64,000 nucleotides of DNA from Saccharomonospora marina XMU15 (GTDB lineage Bacteria > Actinomycetota > Actinomycetes > Mycobacteriales > Pseudonocardiaceae): NCBI RefSeq assembly GCF_000244955.1, contig NZ_CM001439.1, positions 2,446,628 through 2,510,627 of the forward strand. Reading direction: 5' to 3'. The notes beneath the pieces were generated by a model. The model was not told where the DNA came from. It was given only the letters and a program-made list of their open reading frames with translations, and made no database searches. The position numbers were made by a program, and so were the translations under genes. Every line of letters starts with the position of its first letter. Positions within the stretch are counted from its first letter, which is position 1. Positions 6,127-59,617 of this stretch are shown piece after piece.

Positions 6127-8232
6127 ATGGCAGCAGACGAATCAACTGACGAGGTTGTTCGCTTGACCACCAAGCGACTCCCTGAGGACTGGACCGAGCT
6201 GGACCGGCGCGCGGTGGACACGGCCCGCGTGCTGGCTGCGGACGCGGTCGAGCACTGCGGGAGCGGACACCCCGGCACGGCCATGAGCCTCGCGCCTGTC
6301 GCCTACGCGCTGTTCCAGCGGGTCATGCGGCACGACCCGGGCGACTCCCAGTGGATCGGCCGGGACCGGTTCGTGCTCTCCGCCGGGCATTCCAGCCTCA
6401 CCCTTTACATCCAGCTGTTCCTTTCCGGCTACGGACTGGAACTGGACGACCTGAAGGCCTTGCGAAAGTGGGGTTCGCTGACCCCAGGCCACCCCGAGTA
6501 CGGGCACACCAACGGTGTGGAGACCACCACCGGCCCACTGGGCCAGGGGCTGGCCAACGCGGTCGGCATGGCCATGGCGGCCCGCCGCGAGCGTGGCCTG
6601 CTCGACCCGGACGCCGAGCCGGGAACGAGCGTGTTCGACCACCAGATCTACGTGCTGGCCTCCGACGGCGACATCGAGGAAGGTGTTACCTCCGAGGCCT
6701 CGTCGCTGGCGGGAACCCAGCAGCTCGGCAACCTCACGGTGATCTACGACAGCAACGAGATCTCCATCGAGGACGACACCCGCATCGCGCTGTCGGAGGA
6801 CACCGCCAAACGCTACGAATCGTATGGCTGGCACGTCCTCACGGTCCACGGCGGTGAGGATGTGGCCGGGATTCTGGACGCGATCGAGCAGGCAAGGGCC
6901 GAGACCGCCCGCCCGAGCCTGATCGTGCTGCGCACCGTGATCGGTTACCCGGCGCCGACCATGATGAACACCGGCAAGGTGCACGGTGCTGCCCTGGGCG
7001 CCGACGAACTCGCCGCGGTCAAGCGCGCTGTCGGTCTGGACCCCGGCCGCAGTTTCCAGGTCGACGACGAGGTGCTGCGCCACGCTCGCGAGGTGGCCGA
7101 CCGCGGCAGGGCCGACCGCGAGAAGTGGCAACTCGAGTTCGATGCGTGGGCGAAGCGCAATCCGGAGCGCAAGGCGCTGCTTGACCGAATCAGCGCGCGC
7201 GAGTTGCCCGCGGGCTGGGCAGGTGACCTGCCCACCTGGGAGCCCGGCGGCAAGGGAGTCGCCACCCGCAAGGCGTCGGCCGCGGTGCTGGCGAAGCTCG
7301 GCGAGGTGCTGCCCGAACTGTGGGGCGGATCGGCGGACCTGGCCGAGAGCAACAACACCACGATCAAGGGTGCTGACTCCTTCGGCCCGGTCGAGATCTC
7401 CACCAAGGCGTGGCAGGCCCATCCCTACGGGCGCACACTGCATTTCGGTATCCGCGAGCACGCGATGGGTTCGATCCTCAACGGTATCGCGCTGCACGGC
7501 GGAACCCGACCGTACGGTGGCACCTTCCTCGTCTTCAGCGACTACATGCGCCCTGCGGTGCGCCTGGCCGCGCTGATGCGGCTGCCGGTCGTCTACGTGT
7601 GGACACATGACTCGATCGGGCTCGGCGAGGACGGTCCGACCCACCAGCCCGTCGAGCAACTGGCCTCGCTGCGCGCCATTCCCGGGATGTCGGTGGTACG
7701 CCCGGCCGACGCGAACGAGACCGCGCACGCCTGGAAAGCCGTACTGCAGGACACCGGCGGACCGGCCGGGCTGGCGCTCACCCGGCAGGACGTGCCGATC
7801 CTGGAGGGCACCTCGGCGGAGGGGGTGGCCCGCGGCGGCTACGTACTCGCCGAGGCGTCCTCGGGCAGCCCCGAGGTGGTGCTGATCGGCACCGGTTCCG
7901 AGGTCCAGCTCGCGGTGGATGCCAGGAAGATCCTCGAGTCCGAAGGGATTGCCACCCGGGTCGTGTCGATGCCGTGCGTGGAGTGGTTCGACCGCCAGGA
8001 GCAGTCCTACCGCGAACAGGTACTTCCCCCGTCGGTGCGGGCCAGGGTGATCGTCGAGGCGGGTATCGCGCAGCCGTGGCACCGGTTCGCGGGCGAGGCG
8101 GGCGAGATCGTGTCGTTGGAGCATTTCGGCGCTTCGGCCGACTTCAAGACCCTGTTCAGCCAGTTCGGCATCACCACCGAGGCCGTGGTGGAAGCGGCAC
8201 GCAGGAGCGTGCACTCCGTACGGCCGAGTTGA
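6127..8232 (+). CDS. tkt: Transketolase
   Basis: This 701-aa thiamine diphosphate enzyme transfers two-carbon units between sugar phosphates and regenerates the RuMP acceptor. Visible motifs in order are GHPGTAMSLAP, LSAGHSSLTLY, the TPP-binding stretch ASDGDIEEGVTSEA with YDSNEISIE, GKVHGAALG, FGIREHAMG (catalytic Glu) and THDSIGLGEDGPTHQPVEQL. The C-terminal domain ends with LEHFGASADFKTLFSQFGIT. The length matches bacterial transketolases. An AGGAG site precedes the ATG. It starts 53 bases after hps and is followed by a strong intrinsic terminator, so hps-tkt forms one operon. A dedicated copy in a C1 cluster is typical of RuMP methylotrophs. Confidence 0.96.
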   Translation: MAADESTDEVVRLTTKRLPEDWTELDRRAVDTARVLAADAVEHCGSGHPGTAMSLAPVAYALFQRVMRHDPGDSQWIGRDRFVLSAGHSSLTLYIQLFLSGYGLELDDLKALRKWGSLTPGHPEYGHTNGVETTTGPLGQGLANAVGMAMAARRERGLLDPDAEPGTSVFDHQIYVLASDGDIEEGVTSEASSLAGTQQLGNLTVIYDSNEISIEDDTRIALSEDTAKRYESYGWHVLTVHGGEDVAGILDAIEQARAETARPSLIVLRTVIGYPAPTMMNTGKVHGAALGADELAAVKRAVGLDPGRSFQVDDEVLRHAREVADRGRADREKWQLEFDAWAKRNPERKALLDRISARELPAGWAGDLPTWEPGGKGVATRKASAAVLAKLGEVLPELWGGSADLAESNNTTIKGADSFGPVEISTKAWQAHPYGRTLHFGIREHAMGSILNGIALHGGTRPYGGTFLVFSDYMRPAVRLAALMRLPVVYVWTHDSIGLGEDGPTHQPVEQLASLRAIPGMSVVRPADANETAHAWKAVLQDTGGPAGLALTRQDVPILEGTSAEGVARGGYVLAEASSGSPEVVLIGTGSEVQLAVDARKILESEGIATRVVSMPCVEWFDRQEQSYREQVLPPSVRARVIVEAGIAQPWHRFAGEAGEIVSLEHFGASADFKTLFSQFGITTEAVVEAARRSVHSVRPS

Positions 8233-46618: not shown

Positions 46619-47054
46619 GCCGCGAACGCTAGGCGCGGCCCGCTGACCGGCGCTTCTCGATTCCTGACGGCTTCACGACCACGGCGTGCGGCCCCGGAAG
46701 CAACGCGAGCAGGCACGGATGTGCTGCCCTTCGGTGACCCTGCCACCGAATACCATGCCGAGATCGTGGTGTGCCAGGAGCGCGAGGGTCGGCCCGCGAG
46801 CACGCTGACGCGCGGGTCGCGCCGATCCGCTGCCGCCACGTCACCGGCTCGGCCACCCGCGACGTCGAGGACGTTCCCGGGCACCGAGGTGCTGGTGATC
46901 GATCAGTGGCAGCCCGCGACGGTTGCCGCGGAGAACCCCAGACCCATGACCTGTCCGATCGGGTAGGTGGCCGCCGCCGGGCCGAACGGTGACCGACCAG
47001 GCAGGGGAGAGGTACCTTGGAGCGCGCCGACGCGAGGAAGCGAGGTGGGCCGCT
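46619..47054. promoter_or_regulatory. Divergent region between VOC protein and alcohol dehydrogenase
   Basis: About 370-435 bases, depending on the dehydrogenase start. Both strands have short open frames without motifs. The promoter of the dehydrogenase-kinase-regulator unit should be here. No clear operator was found. Confidence 0.35.
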
Positions 47055-48374
47055 GTGGTACGACTGACCGACCTTCCACAGTCACCGGGAGCCGCGACCG
47101 GATTGGCGCTCGCCGCGAGACCGCTGCCTGCCCGAACGCAGGGGCCGAGGCGGGAGCTGGTCGCGCCCGACGACGAGCTGCTCGGGCCGCAGGAGCCGAC
47201 CCCGGCCAGCGGAGAGCGGGCCTGCGACCTCGCCAAGTTCCACATCCCCGAAGTGGTGTTCGGGCCGGGCGCGCTGGCCGAACTCGGGCACGCGGCGCGG
47301 CGGGTCGGCGCGCGACAGCCGTTCCTGGTTACCGACCCCGGGATCATCGAGGCAGGCTGGGTGGCGGAGGCACAGGGCCACCTGCGCCTGGCCGGGCTGT
47401 CACCGGTGACCTGGCACGGCGTCACCCCCAACCCCAAGGACCACGAGGTCACCGACGCTTATGTGCACTACGTCGAAAGCGGTGCGGATGTGATCGTCGC
47501 GGTCGGCGGAGGCTCGTGCATCGACGCCGCGAAAGGGGTCGCCATCCTGGCGAGCAACGGTGGCACGATCCTCGGCTACGCGGGTGTCGACAAGGTCGTG
47601 CAGCCGATCCCCCCGCTGGTCATGGCGCCGTCGACCTCGGGGACGGGTGCGGACGTGTCGCAGTTCGCGGTGATCACCGACACCACCGAACACACCAAGA
47701 TCACCATCATCAGCAGGACGTTGGTGCCCGAGATCTCGATCGTCGACCCGCGCCTGCTGATCACGATGCCGGACGAGTTGAACGCGGCGACGGGCCTGGA
47801 CGCGCTGACCCACGCGATCGAGTCCTTCACCTCGCGGGCGCACAATCCGCTCACCGACCAGCACGCACTGCATTCGGCCCGCCTCATCACGGAACACCTG
47901 CTGGAGACCATGCTGCGGCCGAGGGCGGCCGCGCCACGCACGGCAATGGCGCAGGCGGCGCTGCAGGCCGGGATGGCCTTCACCAACGCGATTCTCGGCA
48001 TCACCCACGCCATGAGCCACCAGGTCGGCGGGCTGCTCGACATCCCGCACGGCGTACTCAACGGGGTCCTGTTACCGCACGCCATCCGGTTCAACGCGGC
48101 GGTGGAGCCGCAACGGTACGTCCCGATCGCCGCGGCGATCGGGATCGACACCGCCAACGGCAGGCCCGGCGCCGAGGTCGCCGACGAACTGGCCGCTCAC
48201 GTCCGCCAACTCGCCGACACCGTCGGGGTGCCGCGTGGGCTGTCGAAGCTCGGCGTGAGCGAGGCCGATATTCCGACGCTGGCACGCAACACGCTCAAGG
48301 ACGCGTGCCTGGCGACCAACCCGCGGGAGGCCGATGTCGCCGAGGTCGAGGCGTTGCTGCGGCGGGCGATGTAG
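47055..48374 (+). CDS. Iron-type (group III) alcohol dehydrogenase
   Basis: This 439-aa enzyme oxidises primary alcohols with NAD-type cofactor. Motifs are VIVAVGGGSCIDAAKG (nucleotide site), APSTSGTGADVSQFAVI, and metal ligands in GLDALTHAIESFTS (Asp, His), ITHAMSHQVGG (His) and LLDIPHGVLNG (His). The GTG at 47055 follows GAGGTGG; a GTG at 46989 would add 22 residues. Even from 47055 there are about 55 residues before the core (FHIPEVVFGPGALAEL), longer than usual. It is followed 12 bases later by a histidine kinase and response regulator, so a signal linked to alcohol presumably controls it or the facing mno cluster. Confidence 0.9.
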   Translation: MVRLTDLPQSPGAATGLALAARPLPARTQGPRRELVAPDDELLGPQEPTPASGERACDLAKFHIPEVVFGPGALAELGHAARRVGARQPFLVTDPGIIEAGWVAEAQGHLRLAGLSPVTWHGVTPNPKDHEVTDAYVHYVESGADVIVAVGGGSCIDAAKGVAILASNGGTILGYAGVDKVVQPIPPLVMAPSTSGTGADVSQFAVITDTTEHTKITIISRTLVPEISIVDPRLLITMPDELNAATGLDALTHAIESFTSRAHNPLTDQHALHSARLITEHLLETMLRPRAAAPRTAMAQAALQAGMAFTNAILGITHAMSHQVGGLLDIPHGVLNGVLLPHAIRFNAAVEPQRYVPIAAAIGIDTANGRPGAEVADELAAHVRQLADTVGVPRGLSKLGVSEADIPTLARNTLKDACLATNPREADVAEVEALLRRAM

Positions 48375-48386
48375 GGGCTGGCTGTC

Positions 48387-49760
48387 GTGACATCGGCGCA
48401 GAGCGCGGAAAACGGGCGAGGCGCGGCATACATCGGTGCCCTGACCGGCGTGCGGTCCGGCAAGCGGTCGTTCTACCCCGAATACGTCCGCTCCTCGCAG
48501 CGGCTGGAACGCGCCATCGGCGCGCTCGACCGGATATCCCGCGCGCTCGTTCGCACCGCAGAGGGCCCCAGCGCGCTCGTCGAGGCGGTGGTGCGCGCGG
48601 CGGCGGACCATCTGCACGCCGACTGGCTGCTGTTCGCGATCGCCGACGGCGTGCTGCCCGCCGCGAGACCGAGGTTCCTGCTGCTGGCCAGGGGACGGTT
48701 GCTGGCCAGCGAGGAGGCCATCCCGGCGCACGCACGGGCCGCGCTGGAGACGCTGCGGTGCCGGCCGTGGGAGGCCGAGCGTCCCGTGGCCGACGAGGTG
48801 CGCGTGGCGATGACCCTGGACGGGGAGCCGGTCGGCGGGATAGCCGGTCGGCCGGGCCGCGACATCGAGCCCGCCGACACCGACCTCGCCGTACTTCGGG
48901 TACTCGCCAACCAGGCAGCCGTCGCACTGCACAACTCGTTCCTGCTGCACGCCACCATGCGGCTGCGTGGCCGCACCGAGCGGCTCTCCGAGGAGGCCGC
49001 GCAACAGGCACGGGACCTCGCCGCGCGCAGCGCCGAGTTGCAGAGCACGCAACAACGGCTGATCGGCGCGATGCAGCGGCAAGCGCTCGACGACGAGCGG
49101 CACCGGATCGCGCGGGAACTGCACGACAGCGTCACGCAGGAGGTGCTGTCGGCGGGGATGACGATCGAGATCTGCCGTGCCGAACTGGCCGAGGCCGGCC
49201 CCGAGTTCGCGGGCATCACCGGGCGGCTCGCCGATGCCAAGGACCTCACCCGGCACGCCGTGGAGCGGCTCCGCGCCGCGATCTACGCGCTGCACAACAC
49301 CGCCGAGGAATCCCCCGGCTCGCTTCCAACACTGCTGAAGCGACTGTCCACCGTCCACCTGCCGACGGACCTGACCGTGACCGTCCGGGTCGGCGGGCAG
49401 CCCGTGCCGTTACCGGGTGAGGCCGAGCATGCCCTCATCAGGATCACCGGGGAGGCCCTGTTCAACACGGCGATGCACACCAACGCGAGCAGGGCGCTGG
49501 TCCGGCTGCGCTACCGCGACGAAAGGCTCGTTCTGTCTATTTCGGACGACGGCGACGGCGATCCGGCGCAACTTCGCCGTAGCCTGCGGCTCACCTCGGC
49601 CACCGACCTCGCGGGTTGCCACCGTGGCCTCGCGAACATGCGTGCCCGCGCGGAACAACTCGGTGGCAGCCTTGCCATCCGTAAGTCCCGCATCGGCGGG
49701 ATCATGCTTGTCGTGCAGCTGCCGCTTCCCACGGCGGCAGAAGGAGAGAGTGGTCGATGA
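48387..49760 (+). CDS. GAF-containing sensor histidine kinase (HisKA_3 type)
   Basis: This 457-aa soluble kinase has no membrane segments. An N-terminal GAF-like region (about residues 55-195) is followed by a coiled coil and the phosphoacceptor box ERHRIARELHDSVTQEVL, with His246. The ATP-binding domain has LVLSISDDGDGDP and HRGLANMRARAEQLGG. This is the NarL/LuxR-partner class. GTG 48387 is used. It overlaps the response regulator (ATGA). Mycobacterial two-component pairs next to alcohol dehydrogenases control mycofactocin-dependent alcohol oxidation, and by analogy this pair may control the mno region facing it. Confidence 0.92.
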   Translation: MTSAQSAENGRGAAYIGALTGVRSGKRSFYPEYVRSSQRLERAIGALDRISRALVRTAEGPSALVEAVVRAAADHLHADWLLFAIADGVLPAARPRFLLLARGRLLASEEAIPAHARAALETLRCRPWEAERPVADEVRVAMTLDGEPVGGIAGRPGRDIEPADTDLAVLRVLANQAAVALHNSFLLHATMRLRGRTERLSEEAAQQARDLAARSAELQSTQQRLIGAMQRQALDDERHRIARELHDSVTQEVLSAGMTIEICRAELAEAGPEFAGITGRLADAKDLTRHAVERLRAAIYALHNTAEESPGSLPTLLKRLSTVHLPTDLTVTVRVGGQPVPLPGEAEHALIRITGEALFNTAMHTNASRALVRLRYRDERLVLSISDDGDGDPAQLRRSLRLTSATDLAGCHRGLANMRARAEQLGGSLAIRKSRIGGIMLVVQLPLPTAAEGESGR

Positions 49761-50431
49761 AAGGCGCGACGGATGCCGTGGTGAAGCCACAGCAGCGAGG
49801 GCAACTGAGGATCGTCCTGGTCGACGACCATCCCGTCGTCAGGCAGGGCCTGCGGTTCATCCTGGACCGCGAGCACGACATGAGTGTGGTGGGGGAAGCC
49901 AGCAGCGCGGCCGAGGCGCGCGCGGTGGTGGAGCGCAGCCGCCCCGACATCGTACTGCTGGACCTGAAACTGTCCACCGGCTCGGAAACCGAGGGGCTCG
50001 ACGTGTGCACCGAGCTGACGACCCGGTTTCCGGAACTGGGCGTGCTGGTGCTGACGACGTTCCTCGACGACGCCCTCGTCGTCGAGGCCATCCACCGTGG
50101 CGCTCGCGGGTACGTCATCAAGGACGTGGACACCAGCGGGTTGCTGTCCTCGATCCGCGCCGTGGCACGCGAGGAGAGCGCGTTCGACTCCCGCTCGGCC
50201 TCAGCCATGGTGCGCTCGATCAGAACCGTCTCGGCGGACCCGCCACTGACCGAACGGGAACGCGGCGTGCTGGAGCTGCTCGCGCACGGACTGTCCAACA
50301 AGGACATCGGTGGCAGGCTGTTCATCTCCGAGACGACGGCGAAGTTCCACGTCCGAAACATCATGCGCAAGCTGGGCGCGTCCAGCCGCACGGAGGCCGT
50401 CTTCGAAGCGAGCAAGCTGGGACTGATCTGA
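49757..50431 (+). CDS. LuxR/NarL-family response regulator
   Basis: This 224-aa regulator has a receiver domain with the acidic pair in VLVDDHPVVRQG, phosphoacceptor Asp in IVLLDLKLSTGSE and Lys in GYVIKDVDTSGL. A C-terminal LuxR helix-turn-helix follows, with LTERERGVLELLAHGLSNKD and FISETTAKFHVRNIMRKLGA. Its ATG overlaps the kinase stop (ATGA), so the two are translated together. Targets are probably the alcohol dehydrogenase and/or the mno cluster, on context only. It converges with the VWA-protein gene. Confidence 0.94.
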   Translation: MKGATDAVVKPQQRGQLRIVLVDDHPVVRQGLRFILDREHDMSVVGEASSAAEARAVVERSRPDIVLLDLKLSTGSETEGLDVCTELTTRFPELGVLVLTTFLDDALVVEAIHRGARGYVIKDVDTSGLLSSIRAVAREESAFDSRSASAMVRSIRTVSADPPLTERERGVLELLAHGLSNKDIGGRLFISETTAKFHVRNIMRKLGASSRTEAVFEASKLGLI

Positions 50432-50463: not shown

Positions 50464-51990
50464 TCATCGCCGCACGGCTTGGGCGCCGGCTTCGTCGGCC
50501 ATCCTCGACAGTCCGGACAGGTCGCGAACCACCCGGATGCGGTCACAGTGCTCGGCGTAGAGCGGCAGGTCGCACCGGCCGAGCCGCCACGAGTAGCGCG
50601 GCTCCGGCGTCAACCACACCGTTTCCCTCGCCCGCCTGGTGAGCTCGGCGAACGCGGGAAGGTTGGGGTCGTTGCCGTTGCCCCTGCCGTCGCCCAGCAC
50701 CAGTATCGTGGTGCGGCGGGTGACCGCGCCTGCGTGCTCGGCGAGAAACTCGCCGAACACCGCGCCGTAGTCGGAGTTGGCGTCGACGTCGAGCAACGAG
50801 CCCGCGAGGACGGTTCGCAGCGCCTGCTCGGGAGGTGCCTCGGCGAGCAGTTCCGTCACCTCGGCGACCTGCGCGACGAACGCGAACGAACGCACCTGCG
50901 CGAACAGGTTCTGCAGGCCGTGCACGACATGCAGCGTGAACCATGCCGTGGCACGTACCGACAGGCTCACGTCGGCCAGCACGACAAGGCGTGGCCGGTC
51001 CTCGACCCGGCGCATCGTGACGGGACGGAAGGGGACCGCGTCGTACGCCATGTTCGTGCGCATCGTGCGGCCCGCGTCGATCCGGCCCCGCGCGCCGACG
51101 CGCCGTCTCGGGTTGAGCGCGCCACGGAACGTGCGGGCCAGCCGCCGCAACGAGTCTTCCAGTTCCGCACGATCACGCTCGGCTGAACCGTCGATGTCGA
51201 AGCGTTCCCGCTCACGCTGCTCGACCAGCGTGGTTTCCAGCTCCAGCAGCTTCTCGACATGCCGCTTGAGGGCCTCGGGCAGGTTCTGCAGCACCCCGGC
51301 CAGCCGCCCGCGCAGCGCGGCCGCGTCGCCCTCGTCTCCTTGGCCTTCGGTGTCTGCCGAACCGTCCAGCCACCGCAGCAGCGCGTCCTGCTCGGCGAGC
51401 GTCAACTCAGCGTCCACCTTGGTCTGGCTCTGCCCGGCGAGTTGCCCCGGGGCACCCGCACCGTGCAGGCGGGTCGTCTCCAGCCGCACCCGGTACTCGG
51501 CGTCGGCACCGTCGGCCTCCTCCTGGGAGAACACGATCTCCTCGGTCAACGCGGACATGTCGATCTTGTTGGCCTCCTGGTGAAGGTTGTACCGCTGCGC
51601 CAGGTCGTCGGGATCGAAGTAGTCGCGGATGTCGGAGGGCTTGCCGTGCTCGTGACCCTGCTCCGGGGTCCGGCCGGGCTCGTCGGACAGCGTGAACCGC
51701 TCCAGCTCCCCGGTGTCGGTGAGGTCGTCGTGGCCATGACCGTGGCCGTGCCCGTGCTGTTCGGCCCCGATGCGCACCAGGCCGAAGAACGCGTCGAAGA
51801 CCTCGTCGAACGCCGGCTCGTCGCGGTGATCCTTCACCAGCGCCACGCGCAGCGCCGCCCGTAGCCGCTCCCGGTGGGACAGAATCCCCGGCTCCGCCGC
51901 CGCCCGGACCGCGTCGACGATCTCCGACACCGAGATCCGGATTCCCCGCAGCCGCAGCAGCCGCGTGAACCGGTGGATGGAGGATTCCAT
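50464..51990 (-). CDS. CoxE-like VWA-domain protein with His-Gly tract
   Basis: This 508-aa protein has an N-terminal helical part and a short metal-binding-like tract with five His alternating with Gly (about residues 79-87). A long acidic/helical middle follows, then a C-terminal VWA domain (about 330-500) with the metal-ion-dependent adhesion motif VVLADVSLSVRATAW (DxSxS), SDYG and LVLGDGRGNGND. Such proteins pair with MoxR ATPases to mature metalloenzymes (as in NorQ/NorD and CbbQ/CbbO). It lies 11 bases after the MoxR gene and downstream of mno. The likely role is activation or metal loading of Mno, inferred from context. Confidence 0.88.
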   Translation of the reverse strand: MESSIHRFTRLLRLRGIRISVSEIVDAVRAAAEPGILSHRERLRAALRVALVKDHRDEPAFDEVFDAFFGLVRIGAEQHGHGHGHGHDDLTDTGELERFTLSDEPGRTPEQGHEHGKPSDIRDYFDPDDLAQRYNLHQEANKIDMSALTEEIVFSQEEADGADAEYRVRLETTRLHGAGAPGQLAGQSQTKVDAELTLAEQDALLRWLDGSADTEGQGDEGDAAALRGRLAGVLQNLPEALKRHVEKLLELETTLVEQRERERFDIDGSAERDRAELEDSLRRLARTFRGALNPRRRVGARGRIDAGRTMRTNMAYDAVPFRPVTMRRVEDRPRLVVLADVSLSVRATAWFTLHVVHGLQNLFAQVRSFAFVAQVAEVTELLAEAPPEQALRTVLAGSLLDVDANSDYGAVFGEFLAEHAGAVTRRTTILVLGDGRGNGNDPNLPAFAELTRRARETVWLTPEPRYSWRLGRCDLPLYAEHCDRIRVVRDLSGLSRMADEAGAQAVRR

Positions 51991-52001
51991 CTGCTGCCTA
52001 C

Positions 52002-53183
52002 CTAGAACGCGCGTCGCCGGGCGAAGGACCGGCCGCCCTGGCCCGCGCCCGGCGTCCTCGGCGTGAATCCACCGGACCTGCCCGCGCTCGGACTGCCGTA
52101 GTAGCCGTCGTCGAACCGGCCCGGTTGGTCCTTGGCGGCGCGGACCTCACGCCCGTCGGTGTCGTGCCCGTGGCCGTGGCTGTGGCTGTGGCCGTGCCCA
52201 TGGCCGTGGCCGTGCCCTTGTTCGTGGCCGTTGGAGAGCGAATCGGGAACCTCGGCGTTGGGGTCGACCAGCCGGGGCAGCGCGTCCAGCGCCTTGGCCA
52301 GGTCCTTGTCGTACTTGACGACGACCGAGACCGTGTCGGCGAGCACCGGGGCCGACAGTTCCCGCACGCCCAGGACGGCGAGGGTGCGGGCCCAGTCGAT
52401 GGTCTCGGAGATGCTCGGTGCCTTGCGCATATCCAGCTCACGCAGCCCGCGAACGACCTCGACGAGCTGCCGGGCGGCCGCGTCGGCTAGTCCGGTGTCC
52501 TTGCCGCGCACGATGTCCAGCTCGCGCTGCGCCAGTGGGTAGTCGAGGAACAGGTGCAGGCAGCGTCGTTTCAGCGCGGCGGCGAGGTCCCGGGTGTTGT
52601 TCGAGGTCAGCACGACGTACGGCCGCTGCTGCGGTGTGAACGTGCCGATCTCCGGAATCGACACCTGGAACTCGCCGAGCATCTCCAGCAGCACGGCCTC
52701 CAGCGCCTCGTCGGCCCTGTCGATCTCGTCCACGAGGAGCACCACCGGCTCCGGCGAGCACACCGCCTCCAGCAGCGGCCTGCGTGCGAGGAACCGCTCG
52801 GAGAAGAACGCGCTGTCCTGTGCGCCGATCCGGTCGACGGCTTCGGCGATGTCCGCCGCGTCCTCGACGATCTGGCCGATCTTGTCGCGCAGCAGCTGGG
52901 TGTACAGCAGCTGCTTGCCGTAGTCCCACTCGTACAGGGCCTTGGTGTCGTCCTGTCCCTCGTAGCACTGCAACCGCAGCAGCCTGCGCCCCGTCGCGGC
53001 GGCGAGCACCTTGGCCAGCTCGGTCTTGCCGACGCCGGCGGGTCCCTCCAGCAGGAGTGGCTTCTCCAGCCGGGTCAGCAAGAAGACGGTGGTCGCCATG
53101 CGGGTATCGGCCAGATAGCCCTGCTCGGCCAGCGCCGTCAACACCTCGTCCACCGAACCGAACGGGGGAGTACTGGCAGACAC
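52002..53183 (-). CDS. MoxR-type AAA+ ATPase with His-rich C-terminal tract
   Basis: This 393-aa AAA+ ATPase has Walker A LLEGPAGVGKTELAKVL (about residues 44-60), Walker B VVLLVDEIDRAD, sensor-1 YVVLTSNNTRDLA and an arginine-finger region KRRCLHLFLDYP. After the AAA lid, residues about 317-341 hold ten His in Gly-His/Ser-His repeats, unusual for MoxR proteins and suited to Zn, Fe or Ni binding. The partner VWA protein carries a shorter tract of the same kind. It lies between mno and the VWA gene in one direction, so it probably remodels or metallates the methanol dehydrogenase. The ATG at 53183 gives the standard start. Confidence 0.92.
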   Translation of the reverse strand: MSASTPPFGSVDEVLTALAEQGYLADTRMATTVFLLTRLEKPLLLEGPAGVGKTELAKVLAAATGRRLLRLQCYEGQDDTKALYEWDYGKQLLYTQLLRDKIGQIVEDAADIAEAVDRIGAQDSAFFSERFLARRPLLEAVCSPEPVVLLVDEIDRADEALEAVLLEMLGEFQVSIPEIGTFTPQQRPYVVLTSNNTRDLAAALKRRCLHLFLDYPLAQRELDIVRGKDTGLADAAARQLVEVVRGLRELDMRKAPSISETIDWARTLAVLGVRELSAPVLADTVSVVVKYDKDLAKALDALPRLVDPNAEVPDSLSNGHEQGHGHGHGHGHSHSHGHGHDTDGREVRAAKDQPGRFDDGYYGSPSAGRSGGFTPRTPGAGQGGRSFARRRAF

Positions 53184-53266
53184 GCGAGCTCCTTCCTACC
53201 GTGGTGCGTGGGGTGGCGGCAGGTGCCCCCTGGACCGTGCCGCCACCCCACGGGTCCGGGGACCGG

Positions 53267-54559
53267 CTAGCTGAGCAGGTCGTCCAGATCGCCGGTGAGG
53301 CAGTGCTCGACGACCGGCCGGACGGTCTCGAACGTGCACTCCTTCGCGTTGCCCGGCGTGCACGCGTCACCGAGTACGTGCCTGGTGATCCGGTCGGCGT
53401 CCTCGGCGCCGCCCTTGATCTCCTTGGCGTTCTCGTAGAACTTGGTCGGACCGGTGCCGAGCCGGTTCTTGGAGTAGGTGTCCTGCTTGACGTCCACGAA
53501 CCGCTCCGGGATGCCGACATCACGCAGCAGCCGGATCGCCGCGGCCAGCGCCGCGTCGGCGGCCCGCACATCGGTCATGCCGTGGGTGTCAACGCCCATC
53601 GCCTGCGCGATCTCGGCGAACCGACGGTAGGCCACCGGCATGTTGAACGCCCACACCCTCGGCAGCGCGATCGCGTTGTTGAGCCCGTGGTGGGTGTCGT
53701 AGAAGGCGCTAACGGCGTGCGAGATCGAGTGAACGATGCCCAACCCGCCGGAGTTGAACGCCTGCGCGGCGATGTACTGCGCGTACATCATGCCCTCCCT
53801 GCCGGACAGGTCGAGCGGGTTCCACGTCGCCTGACGCAGATGTTCGGCGGTGAGCTTGATGGCGTGCAGCGCGTTGCCCAGCGACGGCTGGAAGTTCAGC
53901 CGGGAGACGTACGGTTCGGAGGCGTGCGCGAGCACGTCGAAGCCGCACTGCGCGGTGTAGTCGAGCGGGCAGTCGTAGTACAGCACCGGGTCGTCGACGG
54001 CCAGCGTCGTGACCGAGGTGTCGTCGAAGACCACGTACTTGTGCGGGTTGTCCGGGTCGGTGGTGGTATCGGTGATGACATACGCCCACGACGTCTCCGA
54101 CCCGGTTCCGGCCGTTGTGGACACCGCGATGTGCGGCGGGTTCTTGGGATTCTCGGACTTGTTGAAGCCCTCGAACTCGTTGACGTTCCTGCCGTCGTGC
54201 GCCACCGAGATCCGCGCGCCCTTGCACGCGTCGTGCGAGGAGCCGCCGCCGATGGAGACGAAGCTGTCGCACTTGTTCTCCTGGTACAGCGCCACCGCGT
54301 CCATGACGTTGTAGTCCTTGGGGTTGGACTCCACCTTGTCGTAGAGCACCACCTCCAACCCGTGGTACTTCATCGACTCGGTGATCTTGTGCACGATGTC
54401 CGACCCGCGCAGCCCGCTGGTCATCACCAGCGTCCGCTTGAACCCGAGCTTGAGTGCCTCCGGTCCGATCAACTCGTGCGCGCCTGGGCCGAGCAGGGCG
54501 CGGGGGAACGGGTGGAACTCCTTGATCGGGAACGGTTTGAGTAGCTCGTCGACCTGCAT
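53267..54559 (-). CDS. mno: NDMA-dependent methanol dehydrogenase (nicotinoprotein)
   Basis: This 430-aa iron-type family enzyme matches the actinobacterial methanol:NDMA oxidoreductase, a decameric nicotinoprotein with tightly bound NADP and Zn/Mg that oxidises methanol and other primary alcohols. Visible are the N-terminal KPFPIKEFHPFPRALLG, cofactor site SIGGGSSHDACKGARI, VSTTAGTGSETSWAYV and metal ligands in GFDVLAHASEPYVS and LGIVHSISHAVSAFYDTHHG. The length fits the family. ATG 54559 was chosen because the sequence upstream does not look coding. Electron transfer in vivo is thought to involve mycofactocin; no mft genes are in the window. MoxR and VWA genes follow downstream. Confidence 0.94.
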   Translation of the reverse strand: MQVDELLKPFPIKEFHPFPRALLGPGAHELIGPEALKLGFKRTLVMTSGLRGSDIVHKITESMKYHGLEVVLYDKVESNPKDYNVMDAVALYQENKCDSFVSIGGGSSHDACKGARISVAHDGRNVNEFEGFNKSENPKNPPHIAVSTTAGTGSETSWAYVITDTTTDPDNPHKYVVFDDTSVTTLAVDDPVLYYDCPLDYTAQCGFDVLAHASEPYVSRLNFQPSLGNALHAIKLTAEHLRQATWNPLDLSGREGMMYAQYIAAQAFNSGGLGIVHSISHAVSAFYDTHHGLNNAIALPRVWAFNMPVAYRRFAEIAQAMGVDTHGMTDVRAADAALAAAIRLLRDVGIPERFVDVKQDTYSKNRLGTGPTKFYENAKEIKGGAEDADRITRHVLGDACTPGNAKECTFETVRPVVEHCLTGDLDDLLS

Positions 54560-54635: not shown

Positions 54636-54729
54636 CGCGGCATTCCGCCCGGCCGGGACACCAGGTCCGCACGGCAGGTCAGTCCGGCACCTGTCCAAAC
54701 GGAGGGTCGGCGTTGTGGACACGAAAAAT

Positions 54730-54760
54730 GGCGGGGCCGGACACCTGGTCCGGCCCCGCC
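54730..54760 (-). terminator. Rho-independent terminator of aldehyde dehydrogenase-DUF779 operon
   Basis: GGCGGGGCCGGAC at 54730-54742 pairs perfectly with 54748-54760 (13 bp) around a 5-nt loop. On the minus strand the stem is followed by ATTTTTCG, giving a U-tract. It lies 19 bases beyond the DUF779 stop and separates that operon from mno. Confidence 0.92.
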
Positions 54761-54779
54761 ACGGGCATCGCGTTGTCGA

Positions 54780-55187
54780 TCAAGCTTCCGGGTCGCGGCC
54801 CCTGATCGGTGGGGTCTGTGACAGCAAACCGATCTCCTCGTCGGTGAGCAGTCGCGACCGGACCAGGAAGCGCACCCCCTCGGGCGCCTCCAGCGAGAAC
54901 CCGCTGCCCCTCCCGGCGACCACGTCCACGGTCAGGTGCGTGTGCTTCCAGTACTCGTACTGGTCGAGGCTCATCCAGAAGGGCGTGTCGCCGCCGACGT
55001 GGCCCAGCAGCACATCGGCCGCACCCACCGAGAATTCGCCGCGCGGGTAGCACATGGGCGCGCTGCCGTCACAGCACCCGCCGGACTGGTGGAACAGCAC
55101 CGGGCCGTGCACCTCGATCAACCGCCGGAGCACGGCAAGTGCCGCGCCGGTCATGGCGACCCTGCCGGCCGGTTCCGGGCCCGGCAT
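54780..55187 (-). CDS. DUF779 protein
   Basis: This 135-aa protein matches DUF779, small proteins almost always found beside aldehyde dehydrogenases. Marks are VLFHQSGGCCDGSAPMCYP (three Cys), GAADVLLGHVGGDTPFWMS and YWKHTHLTVDVVAGRGSGFS. The Cys/His cluster suggests a metal site. Its ATG at 55187 begins 1 base after the dehydrogenase stop; ATG 55154 is a shorter choice. It may assist the aldehyde dehydrogenase or handle a reactive intermediate; the role is unproven. Confidence 0.9.
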   Translation of the reverse strand: MPGPEPAGRVAMTGAALAVLRRLIEVHGPVLFHQSGGCCDGSAPMCYPRGEFSVGAADVLLGHVGGDTPFWMSLDQYEYWKHTHLTVDVVAGRGSGFSLEAPEGVRFLVRSRLLTDEEIGLLSQTPPIRGRDPEA

Positions 55188-55188
55188 G

Positions 55189-56706
55189 TCAGAAGAACCC
55201 CAGCTTGTTCGGCGAGTAGCTGACCAGCAGGTTCTTCGTCTGCTGATAGTGCTCCAGCATCATCTTGTGGTTCTCCCGCCCGATGCCGGACTTCTTGTAA
55301 CCGCCGAACGCCGCGTGCGCGGGGTAGGCGTGGTAGCAGTTCGTCCACACCCGACCGGCCCGGATGCCCCTGCCGAGCCGGTACGCGGTGTTCATGTCGC
55401 GGGTCCACACGCCCGCGCCGAGCCCGTACAGCGTGTCGTTGGCGATCTTGACGGCATCGTCGACCGAGTCGAAGCTGGTGACCGACACCACCGGCCCGAA
55501 GATCTCCTCCTGGAAGATCCGCATGTCGTTGCTGCCCTCGAAGATCGTCGGCTCGATGTAGTAGCCACCGGGAAGGCCGTCGACTTTTCGAGGTTCGCCG
55601 CCGGTGAGGACGGCCGCGCCCTCTCGCCTGCCGATGTCGATGTAGGACAGGATCTTCTCGTACTGGTCGTTGCTGGCCTGCGCACCCAGCATGGTGGCGT
55701 CGTCGAGCGGGTTACCGCCCCGGATGGCCTTGGTTCGCTCGACGCAGCGCGCCAGGAAGTCGTCGTAGATCGAGGAGTGGATCAGCGCACGCGAAGGGCA
55801 GGTGCACACCTCGCCCTGGTTCAGCGCGAACATCACGAAACCCTCGACGGCCTTGTCCAGGAACTCGTCGTCGGCGGCGAGCACGTCGGGCAGGAAGATG
55901 TTGGGGCTCTTGCCACCCAACTCCAGCGTGACCGGGATGATGTTCTGGCTGGCGTACTGCATGATGAGCCGTCCGGTCGTGGTCTCACCGGTGAACGCCA
56001 CCTTCGCCACTCGCGGGCTGGACGCGAGCGGCTTGCCCGCCTCGGCGCCGAATCCGTTGACGACGTTGAGCACACCCGGCGGCAGCAGGTCGGCGATCAG
56101 TTCGATCACCTTGAGGATCGACACCGGGGTCTGCTCGGCGGGCTTGAGCACCACGGTGTTGCCCGCCGCCAGCGCGGGCGCGAGCTTCCACGCAGCCATC
56201 AGGATGGGGAAGTTCCACGGGATGATCTGCCCGACCACGCCGAGCGGCTCGTGGAAGTGGTAGGCGACCGTGTCGGCGTCGATCTCGGCGATACCGCCTT
56301 CCTGCGCCCGCACCGCGCCCGCGAAGTAACGGAAGTGATCCACGGCGAGCGGGAGGTCGGCCGCCAGCGTCTCGCGGACCGGCTTGCCGTTCTCCCAGGT
56401 TTCGGCGACGGCGAGCGATTCCAGGTTGTCCTCGATCTTCTGGGCGATCCTGCCCAGGATGTTCGCGCGCTCCGTCACCGAGGTGGCCGCCCACTTGCCC
56501 GCAGCGCGGTGGGCCGCGTCGAGTGCGAGATCGATGTCCGCGGCCGAGGAACGCGCCACCTGTGTGAAGACCTGGCCGTCCACGGGGGAGAGGTTGTCGA
56601 AGTAGCGCTGCTCCACCGGTGCCACCCAATCGCCCGCGATGAAGTTGTCGTAGCGGTCGGCGAAGCTCACGGAGCTACCTGGGGTGCCTGGTTTCGCGTA
56701 GATCAT
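55189..56706 (-). CDS. NAD-dependent aldehyde dehydrogenase (acetaldehyde/formaldehyde type)
   Basis: This 505-aa enzyme oxidises aldehydes to acids. Family motifs are [19 protein letters not shown], the cofactor turn [12 protein letters not shown], catalytic Glu in [13 protein letters not shown] and catalytic Cys in [31 protein letters not shown] and [16 protein letters not shown] are further marks. The sequence resembles ExaC/AcoD-type acetaldehyde dehydrogenases. ATG 56706 gives the usual start. It is the first gene of an operon with DUF779, divergent in function but adjacent to mno, so it probably clears aldehydes made by alcohol oxidation. A GAF regulator gene lies upstream on the same strand. 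Confidence 0.95.
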
Positions 56707-58052: not shown

Positions 58053-58372
58053 CGAACGAACCTCGCTGTCCTGGGATTTCTCGGGTCCGTGGTCAGCCGA
58101 CGATGATGGCGCACGATCGGGCATCGGTGCCACTGCCTGGTTGGTCAGTCTTCATGGCGGCGGCGCACCGATCGGGTGTTCTCACCGTGACCCTCGCCCG
58201 GCTGTGAGGCCTTCTTCACCGTCCCGCAACGTGATCTCACCGGCCGGTTACGTGAGGTCATGGCGCGGAAACAGCGGCTCCGTAGCTTGCCCGCCATCGA
58301 ATACGACAGCGGATACCGCGCTGTATACGCGGTTTTGCGTTGCTGCGCCGGCTTAGCATGAAAGGTTTGCCC
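58053..58372. promoter_or_regulatory. Divergent spacer between GAF regulator and urtA
   Basis: About 320 bases without a gene. ACCGCG-N7-CGCGGT at 58315-58333 is a perfect 6-bp dyad about 40 bases before urtA, within a longer imperfect palindrome with ATAC/GTAT arms. This could be the operator of the GntR protein encoded at the end of the urt cluster. The urtA ribosome site AAAGG lies 8 bases before its ATG. Confidence 0.45.
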
Positions 58373-59617
58373 ATGAAGTTGTCCTCAGCAGTGCGAACGG
58401 CCGCGGCGGCGATAGCGCTCGGCCTCGTCCTCGCCTCGTGCGGCAGCCGCGCGGGCGATCCGGCCGCGGCCGGCGCCACCAGTTGCGTGGACACCTTGGG
58501 CGAGGAGGTCAAGGTCGGCTCGCTGAACTCGCTTTCCGGCACCATGGCGATCAGCGAGGTGACCGTCCGGGACTCGATCAAGCTGGCGGTCAAGGAGATC
58601 AACGCCGACGGCGGTGTGCTCGGCAAGCGGCTCAGGATCGTCGCGGAGGACGGAGCGTCCGAGCCGACCGTGTTCGCGGAGAAGGCCGAGAAGCTGATCC
58701 GCGACGACTGCGTCGCGGCCGTCTTCGGTGGCTGGACCTCGGCCAGCAGGAAGGCGATGCTGCCGGTGTTCGAGGACAACAACGCACTGCTGTACTACCC
58801 CGTGCAGTACGAGGGACTCGAATCCTCGGAGAACATCTTCTACTCCGGCGCCACCACCAACCAGCAGATCGTTCCCGCGCTCGACTACCTGCGCGAGCGA
58901 GGTGTCAGGTCGCTGTTCCTCCTCGGCAGCGACTACGTGTTCCCCCGCACCGCCAACGAGGTCATCAAGGCATACGCGAAGGCGAACGGTATCGAGATCA
59001 AGGGTGAGGAGTACACCCCGCTGGGTTCGACCGACTTCTCGACGATCGGCAACAAGATCCGCAAGGCCGACGCCGACGCGGTGTTCAACACCCTCAACGG
59101 CGACTCCAATGTGGCGTTCTTCCGCGAGTACAGCAACGTCGGCCTTTCCGCGAAGGACATGCCGGTGATGTCGGTGTCCATCGCCGAGCAGGAGGTCGGC
59201 GGCATCGGCGTCAAGAACATCGAGGGCCAGCTGGTGTCGTGGAACTACTACCAGACACTCGATTCGGCCGACAACTCGGCGTTCGTGGCGGCGTTCAAGA
59301 AGGAGTACGGCGCCAAGCGAGTCACCTCCGACGCTATGGAGGCCGCCTACACCTCCGTGTACCTGTGGAAGGCCAGCGTGGAGAAGGCAAAGTCGTTCGG
59401 TGTGGACGATGTCCGCACGGCGGCGGCGGGCGTGAGCTTCGATGCGCCGGAGGGGACGGTGACGATCGACGGCGAGAACAACCACATCAGCAAGACGGCA
59501 CGGATCGGCGAGATCCGCTCCGACGGCCTGATCTACACGGTGTGGCAGTCCGACGGCCCCATCGACCCCGACCCGTACCTCAAGTCCTACGACTGGGCCG
59601 AGGGCCTCGCTCGGTAA
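58373..59617 (+). CDS. urtA: Urea ABC transporter substrate-binding lipoprotein
   Basis: This 414-aa lipoprotein has lipobox LVLASC within [11 protein letters not shown]. It matches the UrtA/AmiC-like periplasmic binding family: [40 protein letters not shown] and [20 protein letters not shown], then [20 protein letters not shown]. These segments are characteristic of urea or short-chain amide receptors. ATG 58373 (AAAGG 8 bases upstream) is chosen over ATG 58358. It leads urtABCDE, so high-affinity urea uptake is the likely function. Confidence 0.93.

Follow-up and report, generated by a model that had tools for sequence, protein, structure and literature searches.

The window analysed here, a 64,000-nucleotide stretch of the Saccharomonospora marina XMU15 genome (NZ_CM001439.1, positions 2,446,628 to 2,510,627), carries on its minus strand three successive genes, mno, moxR and vwa, encoding a methanol dehydrogenase dependent on N,N-dimethyl-4-nitrosoaniline (NDMA), a MoxR-type AAA+ ATPase and a protein with a von Willebrand factor type A (VWA) domain. 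MoxR-VWA chaperones that serve a neighbouring enzyme are already known; what is new in this pair is that both partners bear arms of metal-binding type, rich in His-x-His (HxH) motifs, and that these arms co-vary between the partners. The core features, including the metal-ion-dependent adhesion site (MIDAS) of the VWA domain, are as follows.

53267..54559, minus: mno, NDMA-dependent methanol dehydrogenase of the iron-containing alcohol dehydrogenase (Fe-ADH) family, 430 amino acids from ATG (TIGR04266)
52002..53183, minus: moxR, MoxR-type AAA+ ATPase, 393 amino acids, GTG start (AAA_5, Walker A and B)
53022..53045, minus: Walker A motif GPAGVGKT, MoxR residues 47-54
52164..52226, minus: His tract of the MoxR C-tail, residues 320-340, ten His
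50464..51990, minus: vwa, VWA_CoxE protein, 508 amino acids (PF05762)
51730..51756, minus: His tract of the VWA linker, HGHGHGHGH, residues 79-87, five His
51637..51657, minus: second VWA linker motif, GHEHGKP, residues 112-118
50959..50973, minus: VWA MIDAS motif DVSLS, residues 340-344

The enzyme, the ATPase and the VWA protein

Mno scores 680 bits against TIGR04266 (cut-off 625), placing it among the NDMA-dependent methanol dehydrogenases, and methanol dehydrogenases rank first when it is searched against the PDB. Its metal ligands are D208, H212, H277 and H291, numbered from the ATG. Mno belongs to the nicotinoproteins and is linked to mycofactocin (PMC11778925), and for its relatives tightly bound NADP(H), a zinc and magnesium content and a decameric assembly are reported (PMC3602061, PMC11303327), with one Zn2+ and one to two Mg2+ per subunit in the related Mdh of B. 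methanolicus (PMC3602061). The mycofactocin precursor gene mftA, the mft gene examined, is present in the same genome (49.8 bits > 25). The C-terminus of Mno (window 53270-53290) reads DLDDLLS, and an acidic end of the form LDxL[LIV]x occurs in 104 of 125 Mno rows and is missing in those MadA-like and f19 relatives that were looked at. The VWA MIDAS might dock on this peptide. As a feature linked to the tracts it was rejected, its presence not tracking tract state.

The MoxR protein matches AAA_5 (44 bits > 22) and contains both Walker motifs, Walker B (VLLVDEI) starting at residue 148, as in a MoxR-type AAA+ ATPase; a PDB sequence search gives Midasin, NorQ and CbbQ, the latter two as weak matches. 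Ten of its eleven His residues lie within residues 320-340. The predicted structure has a mean predicted local distance difference test (pLDDT) score of 67 and a predicted template modelling (pTM) score of 0.44, with the longest low-confidence stretches at residues 316-344 and 357-393. Beyond the tract (window 52005-52163), the motifs AAKDxPGR...YYG and GQGxRSF are recognisable in most of 15 rows, and because they recur in tract-bearing and tract-less MoxR rows alike, the tail seems, on this alignment, to have a second conserved function. Membership in the UreE type was rejected, the weak match to UreE being confined to residues 279-351 and reaching 24 bits against a cut-off of 237.

The adjacent VWA protein matches PF05762 at 119 bits and has a C-terminal VWA domain with a MIDAS motif of the DxSxS type; it finds no match in a PDB sequence search. 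Its model (mean pLDDT 61, pTM 0.42, low confidence at residues 75-119 and 134-197) folds a helical N-domain at about residues 1-70 and a C-terminal VWA-like domain, with the His tract placed between the two. A Foldseek search with this low-confidence model returns mostly VWA domains and, at rank 12 (E 2.8e-4), an entry for the NorQD complex, whose matched chain G is taken to be NorD. On the basis of both models, the MoxR and VWA tracts probably sit in disordered segments. The ten-His and five-His counts downstream of mno agree with the first-pass annotation, in which the second HxH motif of the linker, GHEHGKP, was absent.

Conservation and co-variation of the tracts

A scan of named genomes with the VWA alignment A1 yields 313 relatives, of which the best 80 were analysed. 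Both tracts are present at all 80 loci (at least six His in some 20 residues of MoxR, and at least three in 20 of the N-terminal 140 residues of VWA), with 6-20 His in the MoxR tails and 5-7 in the VWA linkers. Simultaneously, mno lies directly upstream of moxR-vwa at 79 of them, the 80th (L102) ending at a contig end, so that the co-occurrence of tracts and mno, put forward for survey at first pass, is borne out in this set. Because these 80 were selected by closeness to mostly tract-bearing queries and their tract fraction is biased upward, 65 further loci were added, namely the window and 64 other stretches, divergent families included.

In a 396-genome sample of the phylum, Mno is found at E<=1e-90 in 25 genomes, and in 21 of these a VWA gene on the same strand of the same contig closely follows mno. 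In the remaining four (G222, G359, G446 and G189), moxR adjoins mno; the contig ends inside moxR in G222 and G359 and 0.9 kb further on in G446, and the VWA gene of G446, like that of G189, is on another contig. G189 holds mno-moxR without vwa at one place (L255, C5) and a moxR fragment with a tract-bearing vwa at another (L182, C76), its operon perhaps being split or duplicated. At L135, of the same family, the kinase, regulator and vwa genes are each in two pieces and the second Fe-ADH gene is partial, with mno and moxR whole, a state of decay or poor assembly. A tandem vwa pair follows moxR at L174:7953-11175, the nearer one with a His tract and the other without.

The concordance of the partners was scored on 139 distinct pairs, that is, 145 loci minus L216 and L217 (no VWA on the stretch) and four duplicates. 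With tract-bearing defined as at least four His in the tail or linker, a cut picked after the data were seen, 116 pairs have both partners tract-bearing and 20 have both tract-less, and three are discordant. Mno stands alongside 111 of the 116 tract-bearing pairs and 17 of the 20 tract-less ones. Each partner in every tract-bearing pair has at least two HxH motifs, and neither partner has any in the tract-less pairs. Among the discordant loci, L132 and L133 have a MoxR end with four His and one HxH and a VWA linker with one His and no HxH, and L182 has a tract-bearing VWA and a MoxR tail apparently frame-broken at the contig end. Both kinds of operon may share a genome, as in G357, where the MadC-type operon L169 is tract-less and the mno operon L172 bears tracts.

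The gene right after vwa also bears on the operon. An above-cut-off match to mftM (NF041255) follows vwa at L128 (7470-8369), L132 (8730-9713) and L048 (7756-8613), and therefore the operon is tied to mycofactocin. At L128, L132 and L129, which are tract-less or nearly so, no replacing His-rich gene is found right after vwa, the gene there being mftM (by family search at L128 and L132, by eye only at L129). Its counterpart in M. smegmatis is presumably MSMEG_6237.

Within the tracts, the His residues themselves are held. Of the 116 tract-bearing VWA sequences, all have an HxH within the last 20 linker residues, and 105 can be anchored (11 not); in all 105, His occupies the last and third-last positions of the tract, and the residue between them is G in 52, A in 26, S in 14, E in 6, T in 6 and V in one. 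Over the 116 pairs, the MoxR tails hold 839 HxH motifs and the VWA linkers 456; elsewhere there are 27 in VWA, 4 in Mno and none in the MoxR cores. Judged from these alignments, the His columns are under selection and the tracts are not a product of chance. That they are neutral low-complexity repeats is accordingly very improbable: the segments are of low confidence and disorder-like, and vary in spacing and length, which would suit such repeats, whereas all 105 anchored sequences keep the two His columns around a variable spacer, the distant family f19 carries tracts in both partners with different spacers, and the partners are concordant. The neutral explanation was rejected on the fixed His columns.

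The control set started from 28 loci with other MoxR-VWA genes and comes to 25 after removal of L045 (a cut mno-type locus) and of L046 and L167 (no MoxR found), L033 and L138 being one place. None of the 25 non-mno MoxR proteins has two or more HxH motifs in its last 110 residues, and two have one. Because many control stretches had only 1.5-kb flanks, 15 control genomes, the source of 15 of the 25 control MoxR proteins, were checked with TIGR04266; none has a match at E<=1e-90, a threshold at which the model detects Mno in the 396-genome sample. The VWA proteins of L231, L232 and L234 have 5-6 HxH motifs across the open frame and none in the linker as aligned. In addition, the S. marina genome itself has a second MoxR-VWA pair (L014, G000:C1:2978578-2980724), whose VWA is 41% identical over 232 residues; no HxH lies in the last 110 residues of its MoxR, and no mno within the 20 kb examined.

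The Mno tree of 125 rows leaves out Mno sequences shorter than 380 amino acids (L086, L090, L091, L110, L178) and duplicates (L081, L240, L241, L251). Tract state changes four times per partner on this tree, at nearly matching places. The VWA changes fall at L215, at a MadA-like clade of ten, at a clade of seven (L225, L129-L131, L237-L239) and at L128 among the Amycolatopsis loci; those of MoxR are the same, except that L132 and L133 inside the clade of ten score as tract-bearing. The tree carries a tool warning of long branches meeting, and the L128 Mno, its N-terminus read too far upstream, may have a lengthened branch. Gain and loss of tracts are not separable by the count of changes; L128 and the clade of seven suggest loss, because both are nested among tract-bearing rows. 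The co-variation supports a coupling of the partners, on few events.

Zinc response and a possible metallation chaperone

The M. smegmatis region MSMEG_6242-6236, whose expression is alcohol-induced and zinc-related, resembles the window in having mno (6242), an AAA ATPase (6241), a 'hypothetical protein' (6240) in the vwa position, a 1,3-propanediol dehydrogenase (6239), a kinase and a regulator; the likeness noted is one of gene order, and the passages of these papers give no function for 6240 or 6241 (PMC11303327, PMC6529628, PMC7174638). The gene order points to MSMEG_6240 as the VWA protein, and gene order together with other Mycolicibacterium loci lets us infer His tracts in this pair. 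The operon msmeg_6242-6238 is under MnoSR (PMC11303327), MSMEG_6242 is required for growth on ethanol (PMC6529628), and MSMEG_6241 and 6242 rise in mycofactocin mutants (PMC8406134).

In the zinc study of this organism, where MSMEG_6241 is labelled 'ATPase AAA', MSMEG_6240/6241/6242 change by -24.4/-24.6/-27.6-fold in the zur mutant, by -4.6/-5.1/-6.4-fold in the smtB mutant and by (-3.0)/(-3.7)/-4.64 with zinc excess, parentheses as printed (PMC7174638). MSMEG_6237, a methyltransferase gene in the same cluster, changes by +7.4 with the chelator N,N,N',N'-tetrakis(2-pyridylmethyl)ethylenediamine (TPEN) and by -11.2 with zinc, and the SmtB table gives MSMEG_6237 and 6240-6242 as zinc dependent (PMC7174638). 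The M. smegmatis locus thus follows zinc status, probably indirectly, and is expressed less when zinc is plentiful.

The tracts might instead form a buffer or store of zinc (or of nickel or cobalt) that protects the cell and is unrelated to Mno maturation, which is improbable. HxH-rich tails are common in metal-storing proteins. The zinc-responsive genes of M. smegmatis also fit a store; however, zinc excess lowers their expression (PMC7174638), the opposite of what a store would be expected to show, and tracts are found on mno-linked pairs, with none on the 25 other MoxR proteins examined. Storage was accordingly the weaker half of the first-pass proposal that the tracts store or deliver the metal of Mno.

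The preferred interpretation, with a probability of about 0.5, is that moxR-vwa encodes a NorQD-like, ATP-driven chaperone dedicated to Mno metallation, the His arms handling the metal. It is based on the conserved operon, the paired co-varying tracts, the selection on the His columns, and the intact Walker, MIDAS and Mno metal sites. The lack of tracts in the 25 control MoxR proteins, the zinc-related expression in M. smegmatis, the Zn2+ reported for the B. methanolicus Mdh and the effect of NorD linker deletions also speak for it. In such a machine, ATP hydrolysis by the MoxR ring would move the VWA protein, whose MIDAS site would dock on Mno, and the Mno subunits would be opened so that the divalent metal of the active site could be inserted or exchanged. 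The arms, namely the C-terminal tail of each MoxR subunit and the two HxH motifs of the VWA linker, would bind this same transition metal, most likely Zn2+, and either concentrate it locally or deliver it to the Mno site. We infer the interaction with Mno, the metal binding by the tracts, the direction of transfer and the identity of the metal, which is probably zinc. HxH tracts favour transition metals; hence, magnesium, also named as cargo at first pass, is unlikely. The notion that MoxR-VWA pairs activate metalloenzymes has its precedent in metal insertion by NorQD (PMC13036017).

A more specific version, which we hold tentatively, is an insertase carrying its own cargo, in which the arms of the AAA+ ring and of the VWA adaptor would pass zinc along into the nicotinoprotein dehydrogenase; if hexameric, the MoxR ring would present about 60 His, ten per tail. 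Since arm-bearing and arm-less machines both exist, it is likewise conceivable, on this own-cargo version, that a MoxR-VWA motor gained or lost a metal-supply module in evolution.

Several observations weigh against the metallation chaperone. Many Fe-ADHs work without any known helper. Tract-less operons keep moxR, vwa and every Mno metal ligand: all four are kept in 106 of 106 tract-bearing rows, in 18 of 18 tract-less rows, where changed ligands were looked for and not found, and in L215. The co-variation amounts to few events, with two to three independent pairs forced by the starred branches (sign test p 0.5), and in G189 no vwa is found within 4.0 kb beyond the moxR that adjoins mno. Mn2+ was present in crystals of a B. 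methanolicus relative (PMC12926040). The zinc response in M. smegmatis is more than simple starvation: the TPEN column has no printed value for MSMEG_6240-6242, expression drops under plentiful zinc, and MSMEG_6239-6242 are mentioned in the text among zinc-independent genes, despite the listing of 6240-6242 as zinc dependent in the tables (PMC7174638). Direct Zur control is unsupported, as the table entries for MSMEG_6240-6242 are unmarked for a predicted Zur site (PMC7174638) and the window holds no match to a 15-base Zur-box core with up to three mismatches. Handling of Mno's metal by the tracts, the core of the first-pass proposal, is partly supported by co-occurrence, concordance, the metal insertion known from NorQD and the zinc-responsive M. 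smegmatis genes, while the tract-less mno operons speak against an obligate role. Because these operons retain all Mno metal ligands, the His arms seem to be accessory and may serve when metal is scarce.

A rather less likely alternative is a CbbQO-like conformational repair chaperone that reopens Mno, for instance to release a dead-end complex with NADP(H) or an inhibitor or to let mycofactocin in, with the tracts tethering the partners or Mno through a shared metal or sensing metal. CbbQO, itself a MoxR-VWA pair, is described as a Rubisco remodeller and not a metal inserter (PMC12657314), the mycofactocin connection of Mno, seen in mftA and in mftM after vwa, suits this role, one metal bridging paired tracts would explain their concordance, and tract-less pairs persist. 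Repair alone, however, leaves the kept abundance of His and the zinc-related expression unexplained.

The metallation reading bears on the way in which nicotinoprotein methanol dehydrogenases acquire metal and on the role of most MoxR-VWA pairs. Matched arm-bearing and arm-less forms of one operon occur naturally, and the tractable M. smegmatis has a corresponding locus whose mno genes show a zinc-related response, making the question experimentally approachable. Furthermore, engineered methanol-using strains that rely on Mno might have to express the MoxR-VWA pair along with it.

Neighbouring genes and known systems

Around the core genes, the window holds the following features.

55189-56706, minus: ExaC-type aldehyde dehydrogenase gene
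54780-55187, minus: DUF779 protein gene
54728..54762, minus: terminator-like hairpin in the DUF779/mno gap, 15 pairs then a T-run
49757..50431, plus: MadR/MnoR-type response regulator (NF047785, 349 bits > cut-off 300)
48387..49760, plus: MadS/MnoS-type sensor kinase (NF047786, 635 bits > cut-off 500)
46989..48374, plus: second Fe-ADH, ErcA-like (family search and position)

The minus-strand order is ExaC-type aldehyde dehydrogenase, DUF779, mno, moxR and vwa, and vwa is directly adjoined by the response regulator gene. Because the hairpin (fold z -6.7) and its T residues separate DUF779 from mno, mno-moxR-vwa is probably its own transcript; the scan of the region found two terminator-like sites against 2.0 expected by chance. 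The second Fe-ADH, judged by position, is probably the counterpart of MSMEG_6239. Further away, a putative solute-binding protein resembling the urea transporter UrtA lies at 58340-59617 on the plus strand, and a permease-like frame comes next, both assigned by eye.

The literature searched, which leaves out most subscription journals, yielded no description of a His-rich MoxR-VWA pair. The MadB (NF047784) and MadC (NF047783) families share full-length homology and the order Mno-family dehydrogenase, MoxR, VWA with the window, and MadS/MadR-like regulators lie near L170 and L171. The window proteins, however, score under the equivalog cut-offs (379 < 475 for MadB, 297 < 600 for MadC), and L169-L171, the three loci that do exceed the MadC cut-off, are tract-less in both partners; a literature search did not find the source paper of the names MadA-MadC. 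CbbQ-CbbO, RavA-ViaA and the carbon monoxide dehydrogenase pair MSMEG_0748/0751 are likewise MoxR-VWA partners acting on a dedicated enzyme (PMC12657314), but their targets are others, and the 25 non-mno MoxR proteins examined are without a tract. Metallochaperones of the UreE, HypB and CobW types share the flexible HxH-rich tail and have unrelated folds, the UreE match being confined to the MoxR tail region.

A close parallel is NorQ-NorD, which inserts FeB into nitric oxide reductase and where a MoxR AAA+ protein and a VWA protein with an N-domain, a flexible linker and a C-terminal MIDAS VWA domain likewise serve one metalloenzyme (PMC13036017, PMC9976466). Its target is a membrane haem/non-haem-iron enzyme, in contrast to the soluble Fe-ADH nicotinoprotein here, and HxH tracts on both partners distinguish the present pair, the term 'His-rich' being absent from those two papers. 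When the NorD linker carries deletions, the nitric oxide reductase lacks its non-haem iron; a twisting and stretching of this linker by the motor is the mechanism that the authors put forward (PMC13036017). It is the segment corresponding to the NorD linker that the VWA His tract and the GHEHG motif occupy.

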